NCBI RefSeq assembly: GCF_001685355.1
Contig: NZ_CP016438.1
Location: forward strand, 5,084,001-5,148,000
DNA from: Streptomyces lincolnensis
GTDB taxonomy: Bacteria; Actinomycetota; Actinomycetes; Streptomycetales; Streptomycetaceae
Direction: 5' to 3'
DNA length: 64,000 nucleotides
A program made the position numbers and the translations under genes. This document shows, piece by piece, positions 18,783 to 64,000 of this stretch; the stretch's first letter is position 1, and each line of letters opens with the position of its first letter. The notes beneath the pieces were generated by a model. The model saw only the letters and a list, made by a program, of their open reading frames with translations. It had not been told where the DNA came from and did no database searches.

Positions 18783-21206
<2,424 letters not shown>

Positions 21207-49022: not shown

Positions 49023-50483
49023 ATGACCGAGGTCGGTGCCAGGACGGTTGCTGGGGACGCGGTGCCCGCTCGGCAGGTCGTGGCGGGTGACGGCGGTGCC
49101 CGTCGGCTGCCGCCGGTCCGCGGGTTCGCGCAGTGGCCCGGGCAGGGAACACCCAAGGAGGAGGGCAAGGCGCTGCGGAACCAGGTCCCGCGCGCGGCGC
49201 ACGCCGCCCTCGACCTGGACATCTCCCGGCCCGACGCGGTCAGCGCCGTCGAGGAGTCCGGCCGCGGCCGGATCCCCGGGCTCACGCCGATACGCGTCGG
49301 CCGGATGGCGGCCACACCCTTCGCCTTCCTGCGCGGAACGGCCGGCCTCATGGCCTACGACCTCGCGCGCACCCCCATGACGAGGATCCGCGCCCAGATC
49401 TGCGGCGACGCCCACGCGGCCAACTTCGGTCTGTACGGCGACGCCCGCGGCGGCCTGGTCATCGACCTCAACGACTTCGACGAGACGGTGCTCGGCCCCT
49501 GGGAGTGGGACCTCAAGCGGCTCGCCGCCTCGCTCGTGCTGGCCGGCCGTGAGGCGGGCGCCGACGAGGACCGCTGCCGCAAGGCGGCGGGCGACGCGGC
49601 GGGCGCCTACCGCCGCACCATGCGGCTGCTGGCCAAGCTCCCGGTCCTGGACGCGTGGAACGCCATCGCGGACGAGGAACTCGTCTCCCACACCGACGCC
49701 CACGACCTGGTCGGCACCCTGGAGCGGGTCTCCGAGAAGGCGCGGGCCAACACCAGCGGCCGCTTCGCGGCGAAGTCGACCGAGCCGACCGAGGACGGCG
49801 GGCGCCGCTTCGTCGACGCCCCGCCGGTGCTGCGCCGCGTCCCGGACGCCGAGGCCACCGTGGTGGCGGCCGCCCTGGAGGAGTACGTCGGCACGCTCTC
49901 CGAGGACCGCCTCCCCCTCCTGGCCCGGCACGCGGTGCACGACGTGGCCTTCCGTGTCGTCGGCACCGGCAGCGTCGGCACCCGGTCCTACGTCGTGCTG
50001 CTCCTGGACCACCGGGGCGAGTCCCTCGTCCTCCAGGTCAAGGAGGTCCGTCCCTCGGCGCTGGTGCCGCATCTGGTGAGCGCCGGCTTCGAGGCGCCCG
50101 AGGCGGCGCACGAAGGGCGGCGCGTGGTGATGGGGCAGAAGCGCATGCAGGTGGTCAGCGACATCCTGCTGGGCTGGACGACGGTCGACGGACGCCCCTT
50201 CCAGGTACGCCAGTTCCGCAACCGCAAGGGCAGCGTCGACCCAGCCGCCCTGGCCGCCGACCAGATCGACGACTACGGCCGGATGACCGGCGCGCTCCTG
50301 GCCCGCGCCCACGCCCACAGCGCCGACCCGCGCCTGATCGCCGGCTACTGCGGCAAGAGCGAGGAACTGGACGAGGCCGTCGCCGCGTTCGCCGTCGCCT
50401 ACGCCGACCGCACCGAGGCGGATCACGCGGAACTGGTGGCGGGCGTGCGGTCGGGGCGGATCGCGGCCGAGCTGGGGGTGTGA
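49023..50483 (+). CDS. DUF2252 family protein
   Basis: 486 residues, ATG with GGGGGAGG ahead. The family segments ICGDAHAANFGLYGDARG and VIDLNDFDETVLGPWEWDL resemble a kinase/phosphotransferase-type active site (H-x-x-N-F and D-x-N-D-F-D). TPIRVGRMAATPFAFLRG is the conserved N-terminal part. DUF2252 is related to aminoglycoside-phosphotransferase-like folds, but no substrate is established. Cytoplasmic; apparently monocistronic. Confidence 0.9.
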   Translation: MTEVGARTVAGDAVPARQVVAGDGGARRLPPVRGFAQWPGQGTPKEEGKALRNQVPRAAHAALDLDISRPDAVSAVEESGRGRIPGLTPIRVGRMAATPFAFLRGTAGLMAYDLARTPMTRIRAQICGDAHAANFGLYGDARGGLVIDLNDFDETVLGPWEWDLKRLAASLVLAGREAGADEDRCRKAAGDAAGAYRRTMRLLAKLPVLDAWNAIADEELVSHTDAHDLVGTLERVSEKARANTSGRFAAKSTEPTEDGGRRFVDAPPVLRRVPDAEATVVAAALEEYVGTLSEDRLPLLARHAVHDVAFRVVGTGSVGTRSYVVLLLDHRGESLVLQVKEVRPSALVPHLVSAGFEAPEAAHEGRRVVMGQKRMQVVSDILLGWTTVDGRPFQVRQFRNRKGSVDPAALAADQIDDYGRMTGALLARAHAHSADPRLIAGYCGKSEELDEAVAAFAVAYADRTEADHAELVAGVRSGRIAAELGV

Positions 50484-50563
50484 GAACGCTGGGAGCGCTG
50501 GACGGCCGGGGGTGACCGGGCGGTGCCGGAGGTTCCCGGCCGGGTGTGGCCTACGCTGGTCGG

Positions 50564-51406
50564 GTGACGACGCCGGAAGCTGAGCAAGGTGGTGTCCCCG
50601 GTGAGGACCGGGCGACGCCCGAGGGGGCTGCGCCCCGGCCCGAGGAGCGGCTGGAGCGGGCCGTACGGGCCGCCGAGCAGGCGCTGATCGAGTACGAGAT
50701 CGCCGTCGAGACCTTCCGTATCGAGGTGGAGAACTTCTCGCGGCTGCACCACCAGAAGCTCGGCCCGATGTACACCCGGCTCGACGAGCTGGACGCGCTG
50801 ATCGCCGAGGCACGGGCGGCCCGCAGCGGTGACCCCGAGGACCGGCGCAAGGCCGACGAGGCGCGGGCCCGGGTCATGCCGATGCCCGGGGTCGAGGAGC
50901 TGTTCGGCGGCTGGATGGACGGCCAGGGGCTGTTCCCGGAGGCCGAGGCGATGCTCACCGAGCAGCCGGTGCAGCCTCCGCAGCGGGTGCGGCCCAGCGA
51001 CGAGGCCCGCAAGCTCTACCGCGAGCTGGCCCGCAAGGCCCACCCCGACCTGGCGCAGGAAGAAGGCGAGCGGAGCCGGCGCGAGGAGTTCATCACCCGG
51101 GTCAACGCCGCCTACGCCCGGGGCGACGAGCTACTCCTGCGGGAACTGGCCGAGGAGTGGGCCGCCGGGCCGAAGCCGCCCGAGCAGGGGCCGACGCCCA
51201 GTGACGAGCTCTACGCCCGCCTGGAGTGGCTCGCCCAGCGCAAGGAACTGCTCGCCGTGGTCGCGCGGGAGCTGGAGGAGGGCGCGATCGGCTCCATGCT
51301 GCGGATGGCTCCGGACGACCCGGACGCCCTGCTGGAGGAGATCGCCGAGAAGCTTCTGGCGGACGTCGCCGTGCGCGAGGCCGAGCTGGCGGAGCTGCTC
51401 GGCTAG
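50564..51406 (+). CDS. J-domain-like coiled-coil protein
   Basis: 280 residues from GTG 50564. A helical N-terminal part with heptads (AAEQALIEYEIAVETFRIEV) precedes a J-domain-like segment KLYRELARKAHPDLAQEEG with the HPD tripeptide, followed by NAAYARGDELLLRELAEEW. A C-terminal helical domain follows. It lacks the G/F and zinc regions of DnaJ. It could stimulate a DnaK ATPase on a special client. Confidence 0.8.
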   Translation: MTTPEAEQGGVPGEDRATPEGAAPRPEERLERAVRAAEQALIEYEIAVETFRIEVENFSRLHHQKLGPMYTRLDELDALIAEARAARSGDPEDRRKADEARARVMPMPGVEELFGGWMDGQGLFPEAEAMLTEQPVQPPQRVRPSDEARKLYRELARKAHPDLAQEEGERSRREEFITRVNAAYARGDELLLRELAEEWAAGPKPPEQGPTPSDELYARLEWLAQRKELLAVVARELEEGAIGSMLRMAPDDPDALLEEIAEKLLADVAVREAELAELLG

Positions 51407-51469
51407 GCGGTGTCCGGACGGACCCCGGTGCCCGTCCGTGCGGACGGCGGTGTCGGGTAGCGTCGGGGC

Positions 51470-51817
51470 ATGGATTTCGGAGCTGGTGTGCCCACGGTCG
51501 AGGTCACGGACCTCAAGGACGGCGACTTCCTGCTGGACGTCCGCGAGGACGACGAGTGGCGGGCGGGTCACGCCGAAGGGGCGCTGCACATCCCCATCAG
51601 TGAGTTCGTTGCCCGGTACGGCGAGTTGACCGAGGCGGCGCCGCAGGACGGGCGGGTCCATGTGATCTGCCGCTCCGGCGGGCGCTCGGCCCAGGTCGCG
51701 ATGTACCTCGTCCAGCAGGGCGTCGACGCGGTGAACGTGGACGGCGGGATGCAGGTGTGGGCCGCGGCGGGGCGGTCCGTGGTGACCGACGAGGGGCAGC
51801 AGGGGTTCGTTCTGTAG
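51470..51817 (+). CDS. Rhodanese-like sulfurtransferase
   Basis: 115 residues, a single rhodanese domain. The catalytic Cys67 lies in CRSGGRSAQVAMYLVQQG, with the loop CRSGGRS typical of thiosulfate/thiol sulfurtransferases. LLDVREDDEWRAGHAEGALH is the N-terminal CH2-type motif. 63 bases after the J-like gene, convergent with the acyl-CoA dehydrogenase (7-base gap). Confidence 0.93.
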   Translation: MDFGAGVPTVEVTDLKDGDFLLDVREDDEWRAGHAEGALHIPISEFVARYGELTEAAPQDGRVHVICRSGGRSAQVAMYLVQQGVDAVNVDGGMQVWAAAGRSVVTDEGQQGFVL

Positions 51818-51824
51818 ACGCGCC

Positions 51825-52958
51825 TCACGCCAGGGGGTGGGCCGCCAGCAGGTCGCCCAGGGCCTCCTCGTGGGCCGCGGCCGGACCGAGTGACAGCTCC
51901 AGATGCTTGGCCCAGGCGTGATAGCGGTGCAGGGGGTAGTCGACGTCGGCACCGAAGCCGCCGTGCAGGTGCTGGGCGGTCTGCACGACCCTCCGCACCC
52001 CCTCGCCGGCCCAGATCTTGGCGACGGCCACGTCACCGGAGGCGGGGAGGGTGCCCGGTGCTCCCGAGGCGATCCGCCACGCGGCCTGCCAGAGCGTGGC
52101 CTCCATGGCCCGCAGGTCGATGAAGCGGTCGGCGGCCTGCATGGCGACGGCCTGGAAGGTGGCGACCGGGAACCCGAACTGCTCCCGCTTGCCGGTGTAC
52201 TCGCTCGTCATCCGCAGGACCCGCTCGCCCAGACCGAGAGCCAGCGCGCACGTCCCGGTGGTCAGCAGATCGCGCAGCCACTCCCACGCGCCCTCGGCCT
52301 CGACGACGTCCCGGGCGGCGAGCCGGGCCGAGTCCAGGCGCAGTTCGGCGAGCCGCTCGCCGGTGGTGGAGATCTGCTCGGCGAGCGCGACGCCCTCGTG
52401 GCGGCGGGGAACGGCCGCGAGGACGGTCAGATCGGCGGGCGTGCGGGCGGGGACGAGGACGACGTCGGCGCCGTAGGCCCACGGCACCGCCGTCTGCACG
52501 CCGTCCAGGATCCACGCGTCTGCCTCCCGGCGTGCGGTCACGGCGAGCTCGGCCGGGTCGTGGCCGGTGCGGCCGTTCGCGGCGACCGTGAGGACGACCT
52601 CGCCGCGACCGGCCGCGGGCAGCAGGGCGGACCTCAGCTCCGGGCCGCCGTGGGCCTGTACGGCGGCCATGGCCGCGCTGTGCTCCAGCAGCGGTACCCG
52701 GGCCAGGACCTTCGCCGCCTCGCGCAGCACCAGGCACAGGGCGATGGCGTCGAGGCCCGCGCCACCGTGCTCGGGGGCCGCGAGCAGGCTCAGCAGATCC
52801 GCGTCGGACAGCCTGGCCCACAGCGCGCGGTCGAAGTCCTCGGCGACGGCACCCGCCGTGAGGGACGGGCTGGGCACCGCGTCCGGCGCGACCCCGGCGA
52901 ACACCCCCCGTGCCGCTTCGGCCGCCGCCTGCTGCTCCTCGCTGAAGGTGAAGTCCAC
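51825..52958 (-). CDS. Acyl-CoA dehydrogenase
   Basis: 377 residues, GTG with GGGAGG ahead. The N-terminal helical domain begins MDFTFSEEQQAAAEAARGVF. The C-terminal flavin half contains FQAVAMQAADRFIDLRAME and HLHGGFGADVDYPLHRYHAW. The exact catalytic Glu is hard to place, as in FadE subfamilies that act on unusual or steroid acyl-CoAs. Upstream lie a KstR-type palindrome and the shared ACCGAACRATCGGY operator. Confidence 0.92.
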   Translation of the reverse strand: MDFTFSEEQQAAAEAARGVFAGVAPDAVPSPSLTAGAVAEDFDRALWARLSDADLLSLLAAPEHGGAGLDAIALCLVLREAAKVLARVPLLEHSAAMAAVQAHGGPELRSALLPAAGRGEVVLTVAANGRTGHDPAELAVTARREADAWILDGVQTAVPWAYGADVVLVPARTPADLTVLAAVPRRHEGVALAEQISTTGERLAELRLDSARLAARDVVEAEGAWEWLRDLLTTGTCALALGLGERVLRMTSEYTGKREQFGFPVATFQAVAMQAADRFIDLRAMEATLWQAAWRIASGAPGTLPASGDVAVAKIWAGEGVRRVVQTAQHLHGGFGADVDYPLHRYHAWAKHLELSLGPAAAHEEALGDLLAAHPLA

Positions 52959-53018
52959 GGTCCAGTCCTCCCGGCGGATTCGCTGATCTGACCGTCCTGA
53001 TCTGACGGGCCGTCAAGA

Positions 53019-53032
53019 TAGAACAGGTTCTA
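53019..53032. promoter_or_regulatory. KstR-type palindrome
   Basis: TAGAACAGGTTCTA fits TNNAACNNGTTNNA, the motif of the TetR repressor KstR (sterol/lipid catabolism in mycobacteria and rhodococci). It lies 61 bases ahead of the acyl-CoA dehydrogenase start. No kstR gene is in the window. Confidence 0.55.
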
Positions 53033-53088
53033 GAAGAAGGGAACGACTCTCGGGGGACCGCACCGACGGGCTCGGGGGCGGTGCGCCT

Positions 53089-53102
53089 GCCGATCGTTCG
53101 GT
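53089..53102. promoter_or_regulatory. Shared operator, copy 1 (acyl-CoA dehydrogenase)
   Basis: GCCGATCGTTCGGT; read on the minus strand it is ACCGAACGATCGGC, 13 of 14 identical to copy 2. Confidence 0.6.
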
Positions 53103-53406
53103 TCACCGGCTTCGATGCGGACGGCGCCGTAGGGTGTCAACCGCTGTGAACGGCCCGTGGGCCTGCCCGGACGTGGTGATGGCCACGTCGAGACGGGGCC
53201 GGAGGGGGCTGTGCCGGGCGGGCCTGCGTGAGTACCGTTCCGTGCGGGCGTCGTGGATGTCGCGTGAAGTCGGAGCGACGGCCGCGGTGGCCGCGGGCGA
53301 TACCGGACGCCACGGGCGAAGCTGGGCACCACCGGCGAACGGCAGGGTGGTCGGGCGGTCCGGCGGCCGGGAAGAGGCCGGGATCGCGATCGGGAGACGG
53401 GGCGGA

Positions 53407-54174
53407 ATGGACGCGTACGACGGAGGCTCGAAGGCCCCGCCGGGGCCGGACGAGCCGGGCGCGGCGCCCCCTTCGCCCCTGGCCGAGGGCCGTACCGGAG
53501 TAGCCGGTCTCTCGCTTCCGTACCAGATAGGTGTCGCCGTGGCCCTCGCGGTCGTCGCGGTCCTGGTGTGTGTGCAGGTGGGGATGGTGTTCCTGCATGT
53601 GGCGCCGTCGAACACGGTGACGAAGCAGCACGGCGGGGCGATCGACGACTGGATCTACCCGGAGTTCGAGCAGAACTGGAAGCTCTTCGCGCCGAACCCC
53701 TTGCAGCAGAACATCGCGGTCCAGGTCCGGGCGCAGGTCGCCACCGGGGACGGCGGGACGCGGACCACCGGCTGGTACGACCTGTCCGCCCAGGACGGCC
53801 GGGCCATCGACGGCAATCTGCTGCCGAGCCACACTCAGCAGAACGAGCTGCGGCGGGCCTGGGACTTCTTCGTCGCCACGCACGACGGCCAGAACCGCCC
53901 GGTGGGCCTGCGCGGCTCCCTGTCGGAGACGTATCTGCGCCGCATCGTGACCCTGCGCCTGGAACGCGATGACGTGGCCGGCAAGGGCGGTGCCGTCGAG
54001 CTCGTGCAGATCCGCTCGCGCACGACCAACGTGAAGCCGCCGAAGTGGAGCGACGAGACGGTCTCCGACCGGCCGGTCTACCGGGTGCTGCCCTGGTGGT
54101 CGCTGCCGAAGAACTCCGAGAGCACGGTGGCCACGGCCGCCGGGGCGGACCGGGCCGCGGGGAGCGCGCAGTGA
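53407..54174 (+). CDS. DUF5819 family membrane protein
   Basis: 255 residues from ATG 53407; the frame is open 91 codons upstream, through the regulatory region, so this start is preferred. A disordered N-terminus, one membrane helix (about 44–66, IGVAVALAVVAVLVCVQVGMVF) and an extracytoplasmic domain with WIYPEFEQNWKLFAPNPL. Its stop overlaps the HTTM start (GTGA). Such pairs recur in Streptomyces; the function of neither partner is established. Confidence 0.85.
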   Translation: MDAYDGGSKAPPGPDEPGAAPPSPLAEGRTGVAGLSLPYQIGVAVALAVVAVLVCVQVGMVFLHVAPSNTVTKQHGGAIDDWIYPEFEQNWKLFAPNPLQQNIAVQVRAQVATGDGGTRTTGWYDLSAQDGRAIDGNLLPSHTQQNELRRAWDFFVATHDGQNRPVGLRGSLSETYLRRIVTLRLERDDVAGKGGAVELVQIRSRTTNVKPPKWSDETVSDRPVYRVLPWWSLPKNSESTVATAAGADRAAGSAQ

Positions 54175-55385
54175 ACCGATTCTCCCTGTGCGTCTCCGGC
54201 GTCATCGCCCGTGTCACCGAGGCCGCCCTCGGCCCGTACCAGACCGCTGTCATCCGGATCGGCTTCAGCGCGACCTGGCTGCTGTTCCTGCTGCGCGAGT
54301 TCCCCCACCGCCAGGAGATGTACGGCCCCGACGGCCCCTGGAGCTGGGGACTCGCCGAGCAGCTGATCTCGACGAACGGCGCCTTCACGGCCCTGATGTG
54401 GTCCGACGGCCGCCTCTGGTTCGAATGTGTGTACGTGCTGGCCGTCCTGGCGAGCGTCCTGCTGCTGCTGGGCTGGCGCACCCGCACCATGACCGTGCTC
54501 TTCATGGTCGGGGTGCTCTCGCTCCAGAACCGCAGCATCTTCATGGGCGACGGCGGCGACAACGTCCTGCACCTGATGGGCATCTACCTCGTCTTCACGC
54601 GCTGCGGCCAGGTGTGGTCGCTGGACGCGCGGCGGGCCCGGCGCGCGCAGGCGGCACGGGCGCGCGGGGAGCGGGTGGTGGACCGGGCCGGTCCCGTCCT
54701 GTGGGGCGTGCTGGGTCTGGCGCTGGTCGCGGTGACCCTGGCCGGCCGGCTGTTCGAGGGCGACCGGTTCATCCCGCTGCTGCTGTGGGTCGTATGGCTC
54801 GCGCAGGCCCTGTGGTGGGCCGTCGGGCGGTTCGGCCGGTCGCGCGAGCCGCGGATCCTGCTCGATGTCGTCGGCAACATCGTCCACAACGGCGCGCTGC
54901 TCGTGATCATGGCCGAGGCGTGTCTGATCTACGCGACGGCCGGCTGGTACAAGATCCAGGGCACCCGCTGGCAGGACGGCACCGCCGTCTACTACCCCCT
55001 CCACCTCGACTACTTCTCGCCCTGGCCCGCCCTCGCCGACCTGCTGTCGGCCAGCGGCACGATGGTGCTCCTGGTGACCTACGGCACCGTGGCCGTGCAG
55101 GTCGCCTTCCCCTTCACGCTGTTCAACCGGCGGGTGAAGAACGTCCTGCTGGCGGCCATGATCACCGAGCACGCCGTGATCGCCGTGGTCCTCGGGCTGC
55201 CGTTCTTCTCGCTCGCGATGATCGCAACCGACGCGGTCTTCCTGCCGACGTCGTTCCTGCGCCGGCTCGGCGGCCGGGCGGAACGCGCGTGGGGGCGGCT
55301 GACCGCGCGTGTGCGCCGTGCTCCCGAGCCCGCGCCGCCGGTCCCGGAGGGCGCGAAGGACGCGCACGTGGGCCACACGGCATGA
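54171..55385 (+). CDS. HTTM-domain multi-pass membrane protein
   Basis: 404 residues from GTG 54171. About eight to ten membrane helices. The HTTM signature region runs from GLAEQLISTNGAFTAL and LGWRTRTMTVLFMVGVLSLQ to YATAGWYKIQGTRWQDGTAVYYPL. HTTM is related to the integral part of vitamin K-dependent gamma-carboxylase; the actinobacterial versions have no known activity. Coupled to DUF5819, which may be its exported partner. Confidence 0.88.
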   Translation: MNRFSLCVSGVIARVTEAALGPYQTAVIRIGFSATWLLFLLREFPHRQEMYGPDGPWSWGLAEQLISTNGAFTALMWSDGRLWFECVYVLAVLASVLLLLGWRTRTMTVLFMVGVLSLQNRSIFMGDGGDNVLHLMGIYLVFTRCGQVWSLDARRARRAQAARARGERVVDRAGPVLWGVLGLALVAVTLAGRLFEGDRFIPLLLWVVWLAQALWWAVGRFGRSREPRILLDVVGNIVHNGALLVIMAEACLIYATAGWYKIQGTRWQDGTAVYYPLHLDYFSPWPALADLLSASGTMVLLVTYGTVAVQVAFPFTLFNRRVKNVLLAAMITEHAVIAVVLGLPFFSLAMIATDAVFLPTSFLRRLGGRAERAWGRLTARVRRAPEPAPPVPEGAKDAHVGHTA

Positions 55386-55401
55386 CCGTAGGCTGCACGG
55401 C

Positions 55402-56142
55402 ATGAGCGACCCCCTGAGCGCCTGGCACCGGCTCGCCGGCGGCTGCGTCCTGCTCGACGGCTTCCACGCCCTCAAGCACGCGGTGCGCTTCGGCGCCGAG
55501 GTCCCGGTGGCGGTGACCGCCGACCGCGCCGCCGCGCTGGCCCTCGCCGACGAACTGGCACCGGACGTACGGGAGACGCTGGACGCGCTGCTGACCGAGG
55601 TGCCGGAGACGGCGTACGCCTCCCTGGTGCCGCGCCCGCATCCCACGGCGGTGGCCGCCCTGGCCGTACGGCCGTCCCGCGAGGCCGGTCTGCGGACGCT
55701 GGAGCGCAGGCCCCGCGGCGCCCCGGTCGTGGTCCTCGACAACCCGCGCAACCTCGGGAACGCGGGCGCCGTGATCCGGCTGGCCGCCGGGTTCGGCGCG
55801 ACCGGAGTCGTGACCACCGGCACGCTGGATCCCTGGCACCCCACGGTCGTGCGCGGTGGCGCGGGCCTGCACTTCGCGACCGTCGTGGAACGGCTGGCCG
55901 TCGACGAGCTGCCCGCCGGGCCGCTGTTCGCCCTCGACCCGGAGGGCGATGACATCCGGGGCGTCAAGCTCCCGGACGACGCCGTCCTCGCCTTCGGCTC
56001 CGAGCGCAGCGGGCTGTCCGCCGAACTGCGCGCGCGGACCGACCACCTGGTGGCGCTGCCGATGCGCCCCCAGGTCTCCAGCTACAACCTGGCGACGAGC
56101 GTGGCGATGACGCTGTACCACTGGAGCGCCGCCGGGTTCTGA
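55402..56142 (+). CDS. SpoU/TrmH-family RNA 2'-O-methyltransferase
   Basis: 246 residues from ATG 55402. The three SPOUT motifs are present: VLDNPRNLGNAGAVIRLAAG, AFGSERSGLSAEL and RPQVSSYNLATSVAMTLY. It lacks the ~70-residue N-terminal substrate-binding domain of 23S rRNA MTases in conventional form, though ~90 residues precede motif 1. The modified RNA position cannot be told. The N-terminus is close behind the HTTM gene (16 bases). Confidence 0.92.
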   Translation: MSDPLSAWHRLAGGCVLLDGFHALKHAVRFGAEVPVAVTADRAAALALADELAPDVRETLDALLTEVPETAYASLVPRPHPTAVAALAVRPSREAGLRTLERRPRGAPVVVLDNPRNLGNAGAVIRLAAGFGATGVVTTGTLDPWHPTVVRGGAGLHFATVVERLAVDELPAGPLFALDPEGDDIRGVKLPDDAVLAFGSERSGLSAELRARTDHLVALPMRPQVSSYNLATSVAMTLYHWSAAGF

Positions 56143-56167
56143 GAGCGGGCGGGCAGGCGCGTGAGTG

Positions 56168-57859
56168 CTACGCCTCCCGGCGGACCTCGACGATCCGGAA
56201 GCGGTTGGCCACGAACGCCCCGTCGGTGAGTGCCGAGTTGGCCGCCGGGTTGCCGCCCGATCCGTGGAAGTCGGAGAACGCGGCCGTCTGGTTGACGTAC
56301 ACCCCGCCCGTGAGGTTCAGCGACAGCTGGGCCGCCTCGTCCAGGCAGACCTCCTGTACGGCCGACTCGACCTCCTCGTCGGTGGTGTACGCGCCGACCG
56401 TCATCGCGCCCTTCTCGCGGATCGTGCGCCGCAGCAACTCCACCGCGTCCGCGGCCGAGTCGACGGCCACGGCGAAGGAGACGGGACCGAAGCACTCGCT
56501 CATGTAGGCGGCCTCGTCGTCGGGCTTGGCGCCGTCGAGCTTCACCATGACAGGCGTGCGGACCACCGCCCCCTCGAACTCGGGGTTGCCGATCTCCCGT
56601 GAGGCGAGGGCGACTTCGCCGAGACCGGCGGCCGCCTCCAGGCGGGCCTTGACGTCCGGGTTGACGATCGCGCCGAGCAGGGCGTTCGCGCGGGCGTCGT
56701 CGCCGAGCAGGCCGTCGACCGCGCGGGCCAGGTCGGCGACCACCTCGTCGTAGGTCCGGGGGCCCTCCTCGGTGCGGATGCCGTCGCGGGGGATCAGGAG
56801 GTTCTGCGGGGTGGTGCACATCTGGCCGCTGTACAGGGACAGCGAGAAGGCCAGGTTGGAGAGCATGCCCTTGTAGTTGTCGGTGGAGTGCACCAGGACC
56901 GTGTTGACGCCGGCCTTCTCGGTGTAGACCTGCGCCTGGCGGGCGTTGGCCTCCAGCCAGTCGCCGAACGCCGTCGAGCCGGTGTAGTCGATGATCCGGA
57001 TCTCCGGGCGGGTCGCCAGGGTCTTCGCGATGCCCTCGCCGGGCCGCTCGGCGGCCAGGGCCACCAGGTTCGGGTCGAAGCCGGCCTGACCCAGGACCTC
57101 GCGCGCGACCTGCACGGTGAGCGCGAGCGGCAGCACGGCGCGCGGGTGGGGCTTGACCAGGACGGCGTTGCCGGTGGCGAGGGAGGCGAACAGGCCCGGG
57201 TAGCCGTTCCACGTCGGGAAGGTGTTGCAGCCGATGAGCAGGGCGATCCCGCGCGGGACGGGGACGAAGAGCTTGGTCAGCGCGAGCGGGTCGCGCTTGC
57301 CCTGGGGCTTGGTCCACTCCGCCGTGTCGGGTGTGCGGACCTGCTCCACATAGGCGTAGGCCACTGCCTCCATGCCGCGGTCCTGGGCATGCGGGCCGCC
57401 GGCCTGGAACGCCATCATGAAGGCCTGGCCGGAGGTGTGCATGACCGCGTGCGCGAACTCGTGGGTCCGGTCGCTGATCCGCTTGAGGATCTCCAGGCAC
57501 ACCACCGCGCGGGCCTCCGCGCCCGCGTCCCGCCAGGCCTTCTGGCCCGCCTTCATGGCGGGCAGCAGCACGTCGACGTCCGCGTGCGGGTACTCCACGC
57601 CCAGCTCGATGCCGTACGGCGACACCTCGCCGCCCACCCAGCCGTCGGTGCCGGGCTGGCCGAGGTCGAGGCGGGTGCCCTGGAGGGCGTCGAAGGCGGC
57701 CTTGCCCGCCGCCGCGTCCAGGCTGCCGTGCTCGCCGTAGGCCTTGGGGTGTTCGGGGTGCGGGGACCAGTACGCGCGGGTACGGATCGCTTCCAGCGCC
57801 TGGTCGAGGGTGGGCCGGTGCTTGGCGATGAGCTCGTGCGTGGTCAGTTCGGCGGCCAT
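56168..57859 (-). CDS. paaN: Phenylacetic acid degradation protein PaaN (aldehyde dehydrogenase family)
   Basis: 563 residues from ATG 57859, GAGGAG about 11 bases ahead. ALDH fold: cofactor segment IDYTGSTAFGDWLEANAR, Glu-containing EKAGVNTVLVHSTDN, and nucleophile Cys in YSGQMCTTPQNLLIPRDG. It has the PaaN-type N-terminus rather than a fused PaaZ hydratase. It oxidises the ring-opened semialdehyde of the phenylacetyl-CoA route. Divergent from the 3-hydroxyacyl-CoA dehydrogenase across a gap holding operator copy 2. Confidence 0.93.
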   Translation of the reverse strand: MAAELTTHELIAKHRPTLDQALEAIRTRAYWSPHPEHPKAYGEHGSLDAAAGKAAFDALQGTRLDLGQPGTDGWVGGEVSPYGIELGVEYPHADVDVLLPAMKAGQKAWRDAGAEARAVVCLEILKRISDRTHEFAHAVMHTSGQAFMMAFQAGGPHAQDRGMEAVAYAYVEQVRTPDTAEWTKPQGKRDPLALTKLFVPVPRGIALLIGCNTFPTWNGYPGLFASLATGNAVLVKPHPRAVLPLALTVQVAREVLGQAGFDPNLVALAAERPGEGIAKTLATRPEIRIIDYTGSTAFGDWLEANARQAQVYTEKAGVNTVLVHSTDNYKGMLSNLAFSLSLYSGQMCTTPQNLLIPRDGIRTEEGPRTYDEVVADLARAVDGLLGDDARANALLGAIVNPDVKARLEAAAGLGEVALASREIGNPEFEGAVVRTPVMVKLDGAKPDDEAAYMSECFGPVSFAVAVDSAADAVELLRRTIREKGAMTVGAYTTDEEVESAVQEVCLDEAAQLSLNLTGGVYVNQTAAFSDFHGSGGNPAANSALTDGAFVANRFRIVEVRREA

Positions 57860-58002
57860 GCGGGACCAACTCCTCGTTTCCTGAACTCTTCGTCGAGTCC
57901 ATGACCTGGGCAGAAACATGGGCGGGACTATTGAGGGGTGGGGCGCGAAGCGTCTCGTTCAGGGTGGTGGTGGGCGACGGGTGGGCGGTCAGAGTTAGAG
58001 TA

Positions 58003-58016
58003 ACCGAACGATCGGT
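58003..58016. promoter_or_regulatory. Shared operator, copy 2 (paaN / 3-hydroxyacyl-CoA dehydrogenase–tetR)
   Basis: ACCGAACGATCGGT: ACCGA and TCGGT arms around ACGA. It sits directly after a plus-strand -10-like TAGAGT (57996–58001) and 57 bases before the dehydrogenase ATG, a classic repressor position. Confidence 0.65.
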
Positions 58017-58072
58017 CGGGACAAGGGGGTCCGCCGCATCTGTGGAAAACCCCGTGCGGGAGGATCGCGCAC

Positions 58073-59590
58073 ATGACAGCACTCGACCTCAGCAGCCCCG
58101 TGGCCGTCGTCGGCGCCGGCACCATGGGCCAGGGCATCGCCCAGGTCGCGTTGGTCGCCGGCCACTGCGTACGGCTGTACGACGCCGTCCCGGGCCGGGC
58201 CCAGGAGGCGGCCGACACCATCGGCGGGCGCCTCGACCGTCTCGTCGAGAAGGACCGGCTCGGCGGCGCCGACCGGGACGCGGCACGCGCCCGCCTGCTG
58301 CCCGCCTCCGACCTCGCCGACCTCGCCGACTGCACCCTGGTCGTCGAGGCCGTCCTGGAGCGGCTGGACGCCAAACAGGAACTGTTCCGCGCGCTGGAGG
58401 ACGTGGTCGGTGAGGACTGTCTGCTCGCCACCAACACCTCGTCCCTGTCCGTGACGGCCATCGGCGGCGCCCTGCGCAACCCGGGCCGGTTCGTGGGCCT
58501 GCACTTCTTCAACCCGGCGCCGCTGCTGCCGCTGGTCGAGGTCGTCTCCGGGTTCGCCACGGACGTCACCTCGGCCACGCGCGCGTACGAGACGGCCCGT
58601 GCCTGGGGCAAGACGCCGGTGGCCTGCGCGGACACCCCCGGCTTCATCGTCAACCGCATCGCGCGCCCCTTCTACGCCGAGGCCTTCGCGGTCTACGAGG
58701 CCCAGGGCGCCGATCCCGCCACCATCGACGCGGTCCTGCGCGAGTGCGGGGGCTTCCGGATGGGCGCCTTCGAACTGACCGACCTCATCGGGCAGGACGT
58801 CAACGAGTCCGTCACGCGCTCGGTGTGGCGGTCCTTCTTCCAGGACGTGCGCTTCACGCCTTCGCTCGCCCAGCAGCGGCTCGTGGAGTCCGGCCGGCTC
58901 GGCCGCAAGACCGGGCAGGGCTGGTACGCCTACGGCGACGACGCCGAGCAGGCCGAGCCGCACACCGCGGAGCGGGCCCGCCCGCCCGCCTACGTGAGCG
59001 TCGAGGGCGACCTGGGTCCCGCGTCCGAGCTGGTCGGGCTGATCCGCGAGGCGGGCATCCAGGTCCGCGAGGAGGAAGAGGACCACGGCACCCGGCTGGT
59101 GCTGCCCGGCGGCGGTCAGCTGGCGCTGGCCGACGGGCAGACCTCGGTGGAGTTCCGGGACGTCGTCTACTTCGACCTCGCGCTCGACTACCGCCGGGCC
59201 ACCCGGATCGCCCTGTCCGCCTCCCAGGACACCGCCCCGCAGACCCTCGCCGAGGCCACCGGGCTCTTCCAGGCGCTCGGCAAGGACGTCAGCGTCATCG
59301 GGGACGTCCCCGGGATGATCGTCGCCCGTACGGTCGCCCGGATCGTCGACCTCGCGCACGACGCCGTCGCCAAGGGCGTGGCCACCGAGGAGGACATCGA
59401 CACCGCGATGCGCCTGGGCGTCAACTACCCGCTCGGCCCCTTCGAGTGGAGCCGCAGGCTCGGCCGCAACTGGGCCTACGCGCTCCTGGACGACCTGCAT
59501 CTGCGCGATCCCTCCGGGCGGTACGCTCCGTCGCTCGCGCTGTACCGCCACGCGTACGCCACCGACAAGCGGGAGGGCGGCACCTCATGA
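58073..59590 (+). CDS. 3-hydroxyacyl-CoA dehydrogenase (PaaH/PaaC-like)
   Basis: 505 residues, ATG with GGGAGGA ahead. The NAD fold is VAVVGAGTMGQGIAQVALVA; the catalytic His lies in FVGLHFFNPAPLLPLVEVV; the 3HCDH C-terminal domain appears twice (about 190–285 and 400–490; GFIVNRIARPFYAEAFAVYE, LGPFEWSRRLG), as in PaaH. It oxidises 3-hydroxyadipyl- or similar CoA esters, complementing PaaN. The stop overlaps the tetR ATG (ATGA). Confidence 0.94.
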   Translation: MTALDLSSPVAVVGAGTMGQGIAQVALVAGHCVRLYDAVPGRAQEAADTIGGRLDRLVEKDRLGGADRDAARARLLPASDLADLADCTLVVEAVLERLDAKQELFRALEDVVGEDCLLATNTSSLSVTAIGGALRNPGRFVGLHFFNPAPLLPLVEVVSGFATDVTSATRAYETARAWGKTPVACADTPGFIVNRIARPFYAEAFAVYEAQGADPATIDAVLRECGGFRMGAFELTDLIGQDVNESVTRSVWRSFFQDVRFTPSLAQQRLVESGRLGRKTGQGWYAYGDDAEQAEPHTAERARPPAYVSVEGDLGPASELVGLIREAGIQVREEEEDHGTRLVLPGGGQLALADGQTSVEFRDVVYFDLALDYRRATRIALSASQDTAPQTLAEATGLFQALGKDVSVIGDVPGMIVARTVARIVDLAHDAVAKGVATEEDIDTAMRLGVNYPLGPFEWSRRLGRNWAYALLDDLHLRDPSGRYAPSLALYRHAYATDKREGGTS

Positions 59591-60174
59591 CCACCGCCAA
59601 GCGCGACACCTACACGCCCGAGACGCTGCTGTCCGTCGCCGTGCAGGTCTTCAACGAACGCGGCTACGACGGCACCTCCATGGAGCACCTCTCCAAGGCG
59701 GCCGGCATCTCCAAGTCCTCGATATACCACCACGTCACCGGCAAGGAGGAGCTGCTGCGCCGGGCCGTGAACCGGGCCCTGGACGGCCTCTTCGAGATCC
59801 TCGACGAGGAACACGCGCGCGTGGGGCTCGCCGCCGAGCGCCTGGAGTACGTCGTGCGGCGCATGGTCGAGGTGCTCATCGCCGAACTGCCCTACGTCAC
59901 GCTGCTGCTGCGGGTGCGCGGCAACACGGGCACCGAGCGGTGGGCCCTGGAGCGGCGCCGCGACTTCGACCACCGGGTCGCCGAACTCCTCAAGGCCGCG
60001 GCCGCCGACGGCGACGTACGCGAGGACGTCGAGGTACGCCTCGCGACCCGCCTCGTCTTCGGGATGATCAACTCGATCGTGGAGTGGTACCGCCCCGACG
60101 GCCGGGGGATGAACGAACGCGAGGTCGCGGACGCGGTGGCACGGCTGGTGTTCGGCGGGCTGCGGGGAGCCTAG
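59587..60174 (+). CDS. TetR-family repressor (candidate regulator of the shared operator)
   Basis: 195 residues, ATG overlapping the dehydrogenase stop. N-terminal HTH (TSMEHLSKAAGISKSSIYHHVTGKEEL, quoted as MEHLSKAAGISKSSIYHH; about residues 30–55) and a helical ligand domain with IAELPYVTLLLRVRGNTGTE. Translational coupling to its probable target gene and an operator in front of that gene suggest autoregulation. The ligand may be an acyl-CoA or phenylacetyl-CoA. Function inferred from context. Confidence 0.9.
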   Translation: MTTAKRDTYTPETLLSVAVQVFNERGYDGTSMEHLSKAAGISKSSIYHHVTGKEELLRRAVNRALDGLFEILDEEHARVGLAAERLEYVVRRMVEVLIAELPYVTLLLRVRGNTGTERWALERRRDFDHRVAELLKAAAADGDVREDVEVRLATRLVFGMINSIVEWYRPDGRGMNEREVADAVARLVFGGLRGA

Positions 60175-60190
60175 GACGGGCCCTGGGGTC

Positions 60191-60691
60191 CTAGCTCTGC
60201 GGTTCCAGGTCCTCCTCCTCGAAGACCAGCAGGGTGCGGGTGCTGAGGACCTCGGGGATGGCCTGGAGGCGGGTGAGGACCAGCTCGCGCAGGGCTCGGT
60301 TGTCGGGGGTGTGGATGAGGAGCAGGACGTCGAAGTCGCCGCCGACCAGGGCGATGTGCGAGGCGCCGGGGAGTTGCCGGAGCTGCTCGCGGACCGTGCG
60401 CCAGGAGTTCTGGACGATCTTCAGGGTGATGTAGGCCGACGTGCCCTGGCCGGCGCGCTCGTGGTCGACGCGGGCGCCGAAGCCGCGGATGACGCCGTCC
60501 TCGATGAGGCGGTTGATGCGCGCGTAGGCGTTGGCGCGCGAGACGTGGACCCGTTCGGCGACCGACCGTATCGACGCGCGGCCGTCCGCCTGGAGCATCT
60601 GGAGGATGTCCTGATCGATGGCGTCGAGCGGACGCGGGGACGGCGGGGGACCGCTGCCGTCCGGGCTCTCGGCCATTTGTTCAGGTGCCAT
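60191..60691 (-). CDS. bkdR: Lrp/AsnC-family regulator of bkd genes
   Basis: 166 residues, ATG with GGGGGG ahead. HTH ASIRSVAERVHVSRANAYAR (about 36–55) and the RAM/AsnC ligand domain (VGGDFDVLLLIHTPDNRALR). It has a ~20-residue N-terminal extension. Divergent from bkdABC, whose regulator of this type in Streptomyces is BkdR. It senses branched-chain amino or keto acids. Confidence 0.9.
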   Translation of the reverse strand: MAPEQMAESPDGSGPPPSPRPLDAIDQDILQMLQADGRASIRSVAERVHVSRANAYARINRLIEDGVIRGFGARVDHERAGQGTSAYITLKIVQNSWRTVREQLRQLPGASHIALVGGDFDVLLLIHTPDNRALRELVLTRLQAIPEVLSTRTLLVFEEEDLEPQS

Positions 60692-60729
60692 GTCCCCCCG
60701 CCTCCCTCTCGTGGACGTACTGCGTCCAT

Positions 60730-60765
60730 CTCAGGCTGTGGAGAACCGTTTGTCCACAGCCTGAG
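60730..60765. promoter_or_regulatory. 13-bp inverted repeat with two facing DnaA boxes in the bkd promoter region
   Basis: CTCAGGCTGTGGA and TCCACAGCCTGAG flank 10 bases. The arms embed TTCTCCACA (minus, 60737–60745) and exact TTGTCCACA (plus, 60750–60758). It could be a hairpin, a BkdR site or DnaA sites. Confidence 0.55.
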
Positions 60766-60792
60766 GGGGCCTGTAGCCAAAATGTGCCGGCG

Positions 60793-60806
60793 ACCGAACA
60801 ATCGGT
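60793..60806. promoter_or_regulatory. Shared operator, copy 3 (bkdABC)
   Basis: ACCGAACAATCGGT, 13 of 14 identical to copy 2, 61 bases before the bkdA ATG; nearly the same distance as copy 2 to its gene. Confidence 0.62.
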
Positions 60807-60866
60807 AGGTGAGGCGCATCACACCCGTGGCGCGCCCGAAGCCGTCTCCCACGAGGAGGTGCCGTC

Positions 60867-61997
60867 ATGACGGTCATGGAGCAGCGGGGCGCGTACCGGC
60901 CATCGCCGCCGCCCGCCTGGCAGCCCCGTACGGATCCCGCGCCGCTGTTGCCCGACGCCGAGCCGTACCGCGTCCTCGGCACACAGGCGGCCGCGCAGGC
61001 CGACCCCGAGCTGTTGCGCCGGCTGTACGCCGAGCTGGTGCGCGGCCGCAGGTACAACGCGCAGGCCACCGCCCTCACCAAGCAGGGCCGGCTCGCCGTC
61101 TACCCCTCCAGCACCGGCCAGGAGGCCTGCGAGGTCGCCGCCGCGCTGGCCCTCGAAGACCGTGACTGGCTCTTCCCCAGCTACCGCGACACCCTCGCCG
61201 CCGTCGCCCGGGGCCTCGACCCCGTCCAGGCGCTGACCCTGCTGCGCGGCGACTGGCACACCGGCTACGACCCGCGCGAGCACCGGGTGGCGCCCCTGTG
61301 TACCCCGCTCGCCACCCAGCTCCCGCACGCCGTGGGCCTCGCGCACGCCGCCCGTCTCAAGGGCGACGACGTGGTCGCGCTCGCCATGGTCGGCGACGGC
61401 GGCACCAGCGAGGGCGACTTCCACGAGGCGCTGAACTTCGCCGCCGTCTGGCAGGCGCCGGTCGTCTTCCTCGTCCAGAACAACGGTTTCGCCATCTCCG
61501 TCCCGCTCGCCAAGCAGACCGCGGCCCCGTCGCTGGCCCACAAGGCCGTCGGCTACGGCATGCCCGGACGCCTGGTCGACGGCAACGACGCGGCCGCCGT
61601 GCACGAGGTCCTGACCGCCGCCGTACGCCACGCGCGCGCGGGCGGCGGACCGACACTGGTGGAGGCCATCACCTACCGCGTCGAGGCCCACACCAACGCC
61701 GACGACGCGACCCGCTACCGCGGCGACGCCGAGGTCGAGACCTGGCGCGGACACGACCCGATCGCCCTCCTGGAGCACGAGCTGACCGAGCGCGGTCTGA
61801 TCGACGAGGCGGGCATCCGGGCCGCGCGGGACGCCGCCGAGACCCTGGCCGCGGACCTGCGCGAACGCATGAACCAGGACCCGGTGCTCGACCCCATGGA
61901 CCTCTTCGCCCATGTGTACGCCGAGCCCACCCCGCAACTGCGCGAGCAGCAGGACCAGTTGCGGGCCGAGCTGGCGGCGGAGGGGGAGCAGCGATGA
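60867..61997 (+). CDS. bkdA: Branched-chain 2-oxoacid dehydrogenase E1 alpha subunit
   Basis: 376 residues, ATG behind GAGGAGG. The thiamine-diphosphate motif runs from GDG (VGDGGTSEGDFHEALNFAAV) to NN (VQNNGFAISVPLA). It has the family's regulatory-loop region TYRVEAHTNADDATRYR, which carries no obvious conserved Ser. With E1 beta it decarboxylates 2-oxoisovalerate, 4-methyl-2-oxovalerate and 3-methyl-2-oxovalerate, the source of branched starter CoAs. Overlaps bkdB (ATGA). Confidence 0.95.
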   Translation: MTVMEQRGAYRPSPPPAWQPRTDPAPLLPDAEPYRVLGTQAAAQADPELLRRLYAELVRGRRYNAQATALTKQGRLAVYPSSTGQEACEVAAALALEDRDWLFPSYRDTLAAVARGLDPVQALTLLRGDWHTGYDPREHRVAPLCTPLATQLPHAVGLAHAARLKGDDVVALAMVGDGGTSEGDFHEALNFAAVWQAPVVFLVQNNGFAISVPLAKQTAAPSLAHKAVGYGMPGRLVDGNDAAAVHEVLTAAVRHARAGGGPTLVEAITYRVEAHTNADDATRYRGDAEVETWRGHDPIALLEHELTERGLIDEAGIRAARDAAETLAADLRERMNQDPVLDPMDLFAHVYAEPTPQLREQQDQLRAELAAEGEQR

Positions 61998-62998
61998 CCA
62001 CCGTCGCGCTGAAGCCGGCCACCATGGCGCAGGCCCTCACGCGCGCGATGCGCGATGCGATGGCCGCCGACCCGAACGTCCACGTCATGGGCGAGGACGT
62101 CGGCACCCTCGGCGGGGTCTTCCGGGTCACCGACGGCCTCGCCAAGGAGTTCGGCGAGGACCGCTGCACGGACACCCCGCTCGCCGAGGCGGGCATCCTC
62201 GGCACGGCCGTCGGCATGGCGATGTACGGCCTCAGGCCGGTCGTGGAGATGCAGTTCGACGCGTTCGCCTACCCCGCCTTCGAGCAGCTGATCTCGCACG
62301 TCTCCCGGACGCGCAACCGCACCCGCGGCGCGATGCCCCTGCCGATCACCATCCGGGTCCCCTACGGCGGCGGCATCGGCGGCGTCGAGCACCACAGCGA
62401 CTCCTCCGAGGCGTACTACATGGCGACTCCGGGGCTCCATGTCGTCACACCCGCGACCGTCGCCGACGCCTACGGTCTGCTGCGCGCCGCCATCGCCTCC
62501 GACGACCCCGTCGTCTTCCTCGAACCCAAGCGGCTGTACTGGTCGAAGGACTCCTGGAACCCGGACGAGCCGCAGAGCGTTGAACCCATCGGCCGCGCGG
62601 TGGTGCGGCGCTCGGGCCGGAGCGCCACGCTCATCACGTACGGACCGTCCGTGCCCGTCTGCCTCGAAGCCGCCGAGGCGGCCCGGGAGGAGGGCTGGGA
62701 CCTCGAAGTCGTCGACCTGCGTTCCCTGGTGCCGTTCGACGACGAGACGGTCGCCGCCTCGGTACGGCGGACCGGGCGTGCGGTCGTCGTACACGAGTCG
62801 GGCGGGTTCGGCGGACCGGGCGGGGAGATCGCGGCCCGGGTCACGGAGCGCTGCTTCCACCACCTGGAGGCGCCGGTGCTGCGCGTGGCCGGGTTCGACA
62901 TCCCCTACCCGCCGCCGATGCTGGAGCGTCACCACCTGCCCGGCGTGGACCGGATCCTGGACGCCGTGGGGCGTCTTCAGTGGGAGGCGGAGAACTGA
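61994..62998 (+). CDS. bkdB: Branched-chain 2-oxoacid dehydrogenase E1 beta subunit
   Basis: 334 residues from ATG 61994, overlapping the bkdA stop. The transketolase-type pyrimidine domain contains VMGEDVGTLGGVFRVTDGL and DTPLAEAGILGTAVGMAMYG; the C-terminal part contains SATLITYGPSVPVCLEAAE. It forms the alpha2beta2 E1 with BkdA. Its stop shares one base with the bkdC ATG (TGATG). Confidence 0.95.
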   Translation: MTTVALKPATMAQALTRAMRDAMAADPNVHVMGEDVGTLGGVFRVTDGLAKEFGEDRCTDTPLAEAGILGTAVGMAMYGLRPVVEMQFDAFAYPAFEQLISHVSRTRNRTRGAMPLPITIRVPYGGGIGGVEHHSDSSEAYYMATPGLHVVTPATVADAYGLLRAAIASDDPVVFLEPKRLYWSKDSWNPDEPQSVEPIGRAVVRRSGRSATLITYGPSVPVCLEAAEAAREEGWDLEVVDLRSLVPFDDETVAASVRRTGRAVVVHESGGFGGPGGEIAARVTERCFHHLEAPVLRVAGFDIPYPPPMLERHHLPGVDRILDAVGRLQWEAEN

Positions 62999-64000
62999 TG
63001 GCCCAGGTGCTGGAGTTCAGGCTGCCGGATCTCGGCGAGGGCCTGACCGAGGCGGAGATCGTCCGCTGGCTGGTGGAGGTCGGTGACGTCGTCACCGTCG
63101 ACCAGCCGGTCGTCGAGGTCGAGACGGCCAAGGCGATGGTCGAGGTCCCCTGCCCCTACGGCGGCGTGGTCACCGCCCGCTACGGCGAGGAGGGCACGGA
63201 ACTCCCCGTGGGGGCGCCGCTGATCACCGTCGCGGTGGGAGCGCCGGCCACCGGCGGGGACACCGAGAGCCGCGAGACCAAGGGCTCGGGCAACGTCCTT
63301 GTCGGATACGGCACTTCGGAGGCACCGGCGCGCAGGAGGCGGGTGCGGCCGGGGCAGCGGGTGCCCGCGGAGGCGAACGGGGCGGCCGGCACCGTGGCCA
63401 CGGCTTCCACGGCTTCCGCGGCTCCCGAGGTGGCCGACGGCCCCGTTCCCGTGATCTCCCCGCTGGTGCGCAGGCTCGCCCGGGAGAACGGTCTCGACCT
63501 GCGGGAACTCACCGGCTCCGGGCCCGACGGACTGATCCTGCGGGCGGACGTCGAGTACGCGCTGCGGGCCGCCGCCACACAGGTCCGGGCCGCCGCGCCC
63601 GCCGAGCCGACGGCACCGCCTGCCTCCGCAGGCACCCGGATCCCCCTCAAGGGAGTCCGCGGGGCTGTCGCCGACAAGCTCTCCCGCAGCCGGCGCGAGA
63701 TCCCGGAGGCCACCTGCTGGGTGGACGCCGACGCGACGGAGCTCATGCGGGCGCGCACCGCGATGAACGCCGCCGGCGGGCCGAAGATCTCCCTGATCGC
63801 CCTCCTGGCCCGGATCTGCACCGCGGCCCTGGCCCGCTTCCCCGAGCTCAACTCCACGGTGGACACGGAGGCCAGGGAGATCGTCCGGCTCGACCGGGTG
63901 CACCTCGGCTTCGCCGCGCAGACCGAACGGGGCCTGGTCGTACCGGTCGTGAAGGACGCCCACGCGCGCGACGCCCAGTCGCTGAGCGCGGAGTTCGCCC
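62998..64000 (+). CDS. bkdC: Branched-chain 2-oxoacid dehydrogenase E2 (dihydrolipoyl acyltransferase), 3' truncated
   Basis: 334 codons before the window ends. The lipoyl domain has Lys45 in VETAKAMVEVPCPYGG. An Ala/Pro-rich linker leads to the E1/E3-binding domain (VISPLVRRLARENGLDLREL, near residues 150–185), another linker, then the acyltransferase core (IPLKGVRGAVADKL…), cut before its HxxxD active site. One lipoyl domain only. The core transfers the branched acyl group to CoA. Coupled to bkdB. Confidence 0.95.
   Translation, partial: MAQVLEFRLPDLGEGLTEAEIVRWLVEVGDVVTVDQPVVEVETAKAMVEVPCPYGGVVTARYGEEGTELPVGAPLITVAVGAPATGGDTESRETKGSGNVLVGYGTSEAPARRRRVRPGQRVPAEANGAAGTVATASTASAAPEVADGPVPVISPLVRRLARENGLDLRELTGSGPDGLILRADVEYALRAAATQVRAAAPAEPTAPPASAGTRIPLKGVRGAVADKLSRSRREIPEATCWVDADATELMRARTAMNAAGGPKISLIALLARICTAALARFPELNSTVDTEAREIVRLDRVHLGFAAQTERGLVVPVVKDAHARDAQSLSAEFA

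Follow-up and report, generated by a model that had tools for sequence, protein, structure and literature searches.

Does one repressor read the three copies of a 14-bp palindrome that lie close together on the Streptomyces lincolnensis chromosome, and which genes would it control? The window analysed here is a stretch of 64,000 nucleotides (contig NZ_CP016438.1 of assembly GCF_001685355.1, positions 5,084,001 to 5,148,000). The copies, called sites 1 to 3 (Table 1), are found before an acyl-CoA dehydrogenase gene (acd), between the phenylacetate gene paaN and an operon formed by a 3-hydroxyacyl-CoA dehydrogenase gene (hcdh) and a tetR gene, and before the 2-oxo acid dehydrogenase genes bkdABC. 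The initial annotation of the stretch had grouped all three into one combined TetR regulon. Our comparison with related genomes leads to a modified version of this regulon. We put at about 0.84 the probability that the TetR protein, read as the phenylacetate repressor PaaR, controls paaN/hcdh-paaR, bkdABC and a distant paaABCDE operon via these boxes. Thus the outline of the annotated regulon was right, acd most likely does not belong to it, and its principal member, paaABCDE, had been missed.

The 14-mer in the window and in the genome

All three sites match the degenerate 14-mer ACCGAACRATCGGY with 0 mismatches, at the coordinates given in the initial annotation. As it had also stated, the window contains no further copy, here at up to two mismatches and not counting the same sites seen from the opposite strand. 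With three mismatches allowed, 24 matches were found for 24.99 expected, and the excess therefore resides in the exact copies. Small corrections were needed for the spacing. The distances to the start codons, reported as 57 and 61 bases, are 56 (site 2 to hcdh) and 60 (site 3 to bkdA), and the -10-like TAGAGT described as directly preceding site 2 is present with one intervening base.

The genome-wide scan proposed in the initial annotation gave a density far from random. The 10.3-Mb genome holds four exact copies of ACCGAACRATCGGY, three of them in the window, and 14 copies at up to one mismatch, versus one for the reversed control. For the 14-mer ACCGAACRATCGGT, approximately 0.08 copies are expected per genome from base composition; two were found, both in the window. 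The fourth exact copy of ACCGAACRATCGGY (9338389-9338402) is flanked by a ROK gene and an EamA transporter gene and is left unexplained.

Looser searches did not define further targets. The core ACCGA-N4-TCGGT alone occurs at 25 genome places, where about 10 are expected and the reversed control gives 4, and was rejected as a regulon marker for lack of specificity: 13 of the 23 further perfect copies were checked, and 10 of these 13 lie within reading frames of high G+C content at third codon positions (GC3). Copies with one mismatch were also rejected as targets, after inspection of one or two flanking genes at 7 loci of 10 places. Their neighbours, which include a GH10 xylanase, WhiB and UvrD, a response regulator, an APH-like gene, a pectate lyase and a TPR protein, have no common theme. 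No RNA family reached its gathering score in positions 50000-64000.

In 121 Streptomyces genomes, ACCGAACRATCGGT was found 331 times as an exact copy, versus once for the reversed control. Most genomes carry three copies (83) or two (28); four copies are present in 6 genomes, one in 2 and none in 2.

Conservation of sites 2 and 3 in Streptomyces

Conservation was assayed in two sets of Streptomyces loci. Set A comprises 58 loci picked by their TetR gene, with site 2 measurable in 57 (not in L089) and site 3 in 56 (not in L075 and L089). Set B comprises 80 loci. The two sets overlap in part (for example G022 with L265 and G049 with L285), and their counts are kept apart and not summed.

At site 2, the core ACCGA-N4-TCGGT is kept in 57/57 loci of set A and 80/80 of set B. 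Five measured loci have no hcdh, and in these paaN and tetR flank the box directly. At site 3, all 14 letters of ACCGAACAATCGGT are identical in 56/56 and 80/80 loci. In L075 (G089), where site 3 could not be measured, an exact copy of the bkd type is located 16 kb away. Both sites are thus conserved in orthologous promoters, in support of the annotated TetR regulon with its regulator gene coupled to the operon behind site 2, and of the inclusion of bkd in it.

Co-occurrence of the boxes with the TetR protein

The TetR protein has an ortholog in 119 of the 121 Streptomyces genomes. G001 (79% complete) and G037 are the sole two without it, and likewise the sole two without the 14-mer. In a wider draw of 246 genomes of the class, orthologs were found in 75, 22 of which belong to the same genus.

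Within the family but beyond the genus, 80 genomes were scanned for the 14-mer, and the TetR protein was sought in 50 of them. The 14-mer is present in 40/40 genomes with a TetR protein of at least 70% identity, in 1/3 with a relative of 56-62% identity, and in 2/7 without one. In the last two genomes, neither copy has bkdA in the 12 kb fetched (within 6 kb). The species compared are related, and P values for these family counts serve only as a guide.

In a genus without the TetR protein, near-copies of the 14-mer are found in and after an 820-codon frame (L231:6004-7644) and are probably coding repeats.

The TetR protein is best read as PaaR

Twenty distant loci were picked by TetR alone. In 12 of them paaA lies within the stretch, and a box, scored as at least 9/10 core letters, is found at the paaA start in 11 of these 12, against 0.18 expected from shuffles. 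Moreover, a paralog of the TetR protein (61-64% identity) occurs in 4 of the 121 Streptomyces genomes (L206-L209), next to an additional paaN or paaABCDE cluster and with the core ACCGAATGTTCGGT. One stray copy of the 14-mer was followed in each of three genomes, out of the six that carry four copies: two lie at the start of paaK and one by a PdxR-like gene. In L212 the paaK copy lies 22 bases before the frame, in L214 it falls inside the opening codons of the longest frame, and both paaK products score above the curated cut-off. Because of the distant paaA boxes, the paralogs beside paa clusters and the stray copies at paaK, the protein is best read, from these associations, as PaaR, the phenylacetate-pathway repressor.

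The protein itself belongs to the TetR family and has a TetR_N domain, with matches to PF00440 (57.4 bits, cut-off 24) and PF17932 (79.7 bits, cut-off 26.4). It matches S. coelicolor SCO3833 over its full length (351.7 bits). The structure of SCO3833 (PDB 2iai) is listed merely as a putative transcriptional regulator, and the protein was not named in the literature searched. Twelve records of plasmid-borne relatives, all below 60% identity, were not used. In three of the four paralog loci L206-L209, the adjoining PaaA is 85-88% identical to that of S. lincolnensis.

The paaABCDE operon lies elsewhere in S. lincolnensis

The TetR ortholog stands beside paaABCDE in 37 of the 58 set A loci; in S. 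lincolnensis, paaABCDE lies 4 Mb off, at 9.12 Mb. There, an imperfect box, ACCGAACGAATGGTCGGT, which includes AACGA-N4-TCGGT, ends 16 bases before the ATG of paaA. The 19 kb fetched around this operon contain no TetR relative, which makes the TetR protein of the window the obvious candidate for acting on it in trans. This PaaA is divergent, with about 75-80% identity to PaaA of the ancestral locus and 86-95% to that of most of the clade lacking paaA locally. Replacement by a divergent paaABCDE would fit these identities better than a simple move.

A second paa cluster, at 10.03 Mb (L031), has no good box at paaA. Its PaaA is 62% identical, and it lies near genes for an acyl-CoA ligase, an ECF sigma factor and a crotonyl-CoA carboxylase/reductase. 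This cluster may be biosynthetic.

Site 1 as a probable relic of the paaA promoter

Relatives that carry paaABCDE next to tetR have it at the position of site 1. In set A, this position is occupied by paaA in 37/58 loci, by acd without paaA in 16/58, and by neither within the stretch in 5/58. In set B, 12/80 loci have neither gene in the stretch and were left out of the site 1 counts. When paaA is at the locus, the box is present in 37/37 loci of set A (36 near the start, L067 further out) and in 46/46 of set B (45 with a perfect core, one at 9/10). When acd stands without a local paaA, only 5/16 and 9/22 loci showed a box (9/10 or better) no farther than 300-400 bases from acd.

Behind paaE, among 19 relatives fetched, a complete acd was found in 14, a partial match in one and none in 4. 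In the clade of S. lincolnensis, acd is at the locus and paaABCDE is not. The sequence before its acd still resembles a paaA promoter, with CACAGCGGTTGACACCCTACGGCG followed by the box, and 5 of the 22 set B loci likewise retain TTGACAC and the box as in paaA promoters. Because relatives carry paaABCDE-acd at this place, this clade lacks paaABCDE and only a minority of its members keep the box, we read site 1 as, most likely, a remnant of the former paaA promoter that is now decaying. A lingering effect on acd may persist.

The alternative that site 1 is a working operator placing acd under PaaR, as in the initial annotation, looks unlikely. It draws on the box of S. lincolnensis itself, which ends 130 bases before the acd GTG and still scores 9/10, and on relatives such as L277 and L301 that keep a -35 element, a -10 element and a perfect box before acd. 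Yet the box was not found within 300-400 bases of acd in 11/16 and 13/22 loci of the two partly overlapping sets, so that site 1 failed the conservation in orthologous promoters seen for the other two sites. Indeed, all of these relatives retain sites 2 and 3. Moreover, a promoter block of acd's own is present both with and without a local paaABCDE. Located between the box and acd and common to the paaE-acd gaps of relatives, it is separate from the PaaR box, and the -10 element at site 1 of S. lincolnensis looks decayed. The palindrome in this block, TAGAAC-N2-GTTCTA, resembles the KstR motif.

Site 3 and the proposed assignment of bkdABC to PaaR

By position, bkdA corresponds to S. coelicolor SCO3831, bkdA2, a gene name taken from PMC7324645. 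The substrate of the complex is not settled by family assignment, because NCBIfam calls the E1 alpha subunit of both bkd clusters of the genome pyruvate dehydrogenase (TIGR03181 in the case of bkdA).

Outside the family, the bkdA promoter was examined at 30 loci, one per genome, from 30 of 52 distant TetR-bearing genomes (identity to bkdA 56-68% at 24 loci and 41-44% at 6). A 9/10 match lies upstream at 1 of the 30, with 0.8 expected. Because these distant loci lack the box, bkd did not belong to the ancestral PaaR regulon. Judging from the promoters compared, the bkd box arose in, or is restricted to, Streptomycetaceae.

One could suppose that BkdR or another TetR protein reads site 3, which would merely resemble a PaaR box, and that paa and bkd are controlled apart. 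We consider this improbable, although several observations favour it. The bkd box does not vary by a single letter, even at its non-palindromic centre AACA, for which a plain operator has no need, whereas the centre of the paaN box varies across the family (compared beside 18 family bkd loci, which had been chosen for an exact copy of the AACA type and do not count as evidence of conservation). The centre of the bkd box may be under a further constraint. Other blocks in the bkdR-bkdA region also appear to be conserved, and outside the family bkd lacks the box despite the presence of the TetR protein. Against this, the 14-mer tracks the TetR protein through the family (40/40 genomes with it; 2/7 without it, neither copy by bkdA), and G037, which has no TetR ortholog, carries a bkdA of 65% identity without the box. 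Nor is there a box at the promoter of the second bkd cluster of S. lincolnensis (40% identity), or a perfect core within 1.5 kb at seven second-cluster bkd loci of other Streptomyces. Finally, paa genes and this bkd cluster rise jointly in S. rimosus (PMC10612213; see below).

Chance clustering of the three copies, or a repeat, has a negligible probability as an explanation and is refuted for sites 2 and 3: the loose core alone does occur at 25 genome places, but only about 0.08 exact 14-mers are expected per genome, and orthologous promoters retain the copies throughout the genus and in the family genomes checked.

Control by PaaR remains the preferred reading of sites 2 and 3. Besides the invariant bkd centre and the distant bkdA loci without a box, some further observations weigh against it. 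G010 (L089) keeps the TetR protein and its box and has no box at its rearranged bkd; conversely, G120 has the bkd box and no perfect box by tetR on its 8.6-kb contig. One of the 12 distant paaA loci lacks the box. In S. lincolnensis itself, the paaABCDE operon at 9.12 Mb has only an imperfect box, and the paa cluster at 10.03 Mb has no good one. The TetR protein passes no NCBIfam equivalog cut-off, and no PaaR model is among its NCBIfam hits.

Table 1. Positions of the sites, promoter elements and genes discussed, numbered from the first base of the window.
Feature	Position	Strand	Basis or remark
acd, acyl-CoA dehydrogenase	51825..52958	-	complete and directly behind paaE in 14/19 relatives fetched
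inverted repeat TGACG-N3-CGTCA, acd promoter block	53003..53015	.	in 13/14 paaE-acd gaps, by eye
palindrome TAGAAC-N2-GTTCTA, acd promoter block	53019..53032	.	exact in 8/14 paaE-acd gaps, by eye
site 1, PaaR-type box ACCGAACGATCGGC, probable former paaA promoter	53089..53102	-	comparison with relatives
TTGACA, probable fossil -35 of former paaA promoter	53135..53140	-	by eye, against paaA promoters of 19 relatives
paaN	56168..57919	-	TIGR02288, 1000.7 bits (cut-off 578.75)
-10-like TAGAGT	57996..58001	+	one base before site 2
site 2, PaaR-type box ACCGAACGATCGGT, between paaN and hcdh-paaR	58003..58016	+	core conservation
hcdh, 3-hydroxyacyl-CoA dehydrogenase	58073..59590	+	PRK08268, 638.9 bits (cut-off 508); PaaH-like, TIGR02279 575.4 bits, under the PaaH equivalog cut-off of 669.4
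tetR, read as paaR	59587..60174	+	ortholog of SCO3833
bkdR, Lrp/AsnC-type regulator	60191..60691	-	SCO3832 in S. coelicolor, by position and PMC8176718
candidate bkdA promoter TTGTCC-N18-TAGCCA	60750..60779	+	by eye
site 3, PaaR-type box ACCGAACAATCGGT, before bkdA	60793..60806	+	conservation
bkdA, 2-oxo acid dehydrogenase E1 alpha	60867..61997	+	TIGR03181, 425.7 bits (cut-off 411.35)
bkdB, E1 beta	62024..62998	+	start codon not settled
bkdC, E2	after bkdB, running past the window end	+	L140:981-2318 (bkdB is L140:25-999)

Proposed mechanism

The boxes, their conservation, their association with the TetR protein and the paa genes, and the operon missing from the locus are all sequence observations. 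On this basis, a PaaR dimer would bind ACCGA-N4-TCGGT in the start region of paaN/hcdh-paaR, resulting in autoregulation, and in that of bkdABC, as well as the imperfect box before paaABCDE at 9.12 Mb, and would block initiation at these promoters. Site 3 starts 13 bases after the TAGCCA of the candidate bkdA promoter, and the paaA boxes of relatives mostly follow TTGACA-N17-nACCAT (by eye). A repressor at these positions would overlap the start region. Its release would be brought about by phenylacetyl-CoA, which induces other PaaR proteins; binding, repression and inducer are all predictions here. bkdABC would then be under two regulators, BkdR and PaaR, and the site 1 box would have been left before acd upon local loss of paaABCDE.

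Comparison with known systems and published expression data

The core of the PaaR regulon is not new, this kind of regulator being already described in S. pristinaespiralis and in other genera. The S. pristinaespiralis PaaR (SSDG_03033) is likewise described as a TetR repressor of paa genes (PMC10933834, PMC7089894), and its putative site, AACGA-N4-TCGGT (PMC10933834), is the form found before paaA of S. lincolnensis at 9.12 Mb. We liken SSDG_03033 to the TetR protein of the window by description and site; it differs in that bkd is not mentioned in the relevant passages of these papers. PaaR proteins of Burkholderia cenocepacia, Thermus thermophilus and Corynebacterium glutamicum are reported as TetR repressors of paa operons, with operators such as ACCGACCGGTCGGTT in B. 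cenocepacia and phenylacetyl-CoA as their effector (PMC9493321). The targets given in the corresponding part of PMC9493321 are paa genes, bkd not being among them.

Two other TetR regulators are tied to acyl-CoA supply. PccD of Saccharopolyspora erythraea is reported to control the branched-chain dehydrogenase operon (PMC8176718), and AccR of S. avermitilis recognizes a different site, GTTAA-N6-TTAAC (PMC10933834). Unlike for PaaR, the passages on these two regulators mention no link to phenylacetate.

What is new, on the sequence evidence, is the invariant PaaR-type box at bkd, which would make bkdABC an extra target throughout the family. The C. glutamicum PaaR study reportedly defined a 22-bp motif. 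In the literature searched, PaaR, bkd and TetR were not found together, nor was bkdABC described as a PaaR target; Zhao et al. 2015, on the S. pristinaespiralis PaaR, and the C. glutamicum PaaR paper lay outside this search.

Published expression data from S. rimosus HP126 (PMC10612213, Table 2) were also considered. The bkd genes for E1 alpha, E1 beta and E2 (SRIMR7_19995-20005) are up by log2 values of 5.0, 4.6 and 4.7, together with paaE, paaD and paaC (19935-19945; 4.1, 3.5 and 3.3) and paaK (35410; 3.1). These seven are the highest CoA genes in the examined part of that table. The spacing of the locus tags, 19935 to 20005, would fit the ancestral gene order. In the derived-strain column, whose reference strain was not checked, six of the seven values are negative. 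Because 2497 of 8534 genes change in HP126 (PMC10612213), which tempers the argument for PaaR control, the co-induction is only consistent with it.

A further link between the two pathways can be imagined. PglB/C, a pair resembling pyruvate dehydrogenase, has been suggested to convert phenylpyruvate to phenylacetyl-CoA (PMC7089894). With the bkd box and the S. rimosus co-induction, this suggestion leads to the tentative idea, which we would not favour at present, that BkdABC of Streptomycetaceae also converts phenylpyruvate to phenylacetyl-CoA, the PaaR inducer, closing a positive loop of PaaR, paa and bkd. If so, one repressor would tie together phenylalanine, the primers of branched fatty acids and the supply of polyketide starters, and a product of bkd would open both bkd and its own degradation.

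Biological significance

Site 1 would be an example of an operator that outlasted its operon and was stranded before the next gene. As SCO3833 is the ortholog of the TetR protein read as PaaR, a function can be suggested, from sequence comparison, for a solved structure listed so far as a putative regulator. Branched fatty acids and many polyketides are built on starter units that the branched-chain dehydrogenase provides. Deletion of bkdR has already been used to alter polyketide yields (PMC8176718). If the proposed regulon is correct, an overlooked second repressor of bkd, answering to an aromatic acyl-CoA, would explain the joint induction of phenylacetate and branched-chain genes, and PaaR at bkd would offer a simple handle on precursor supply.

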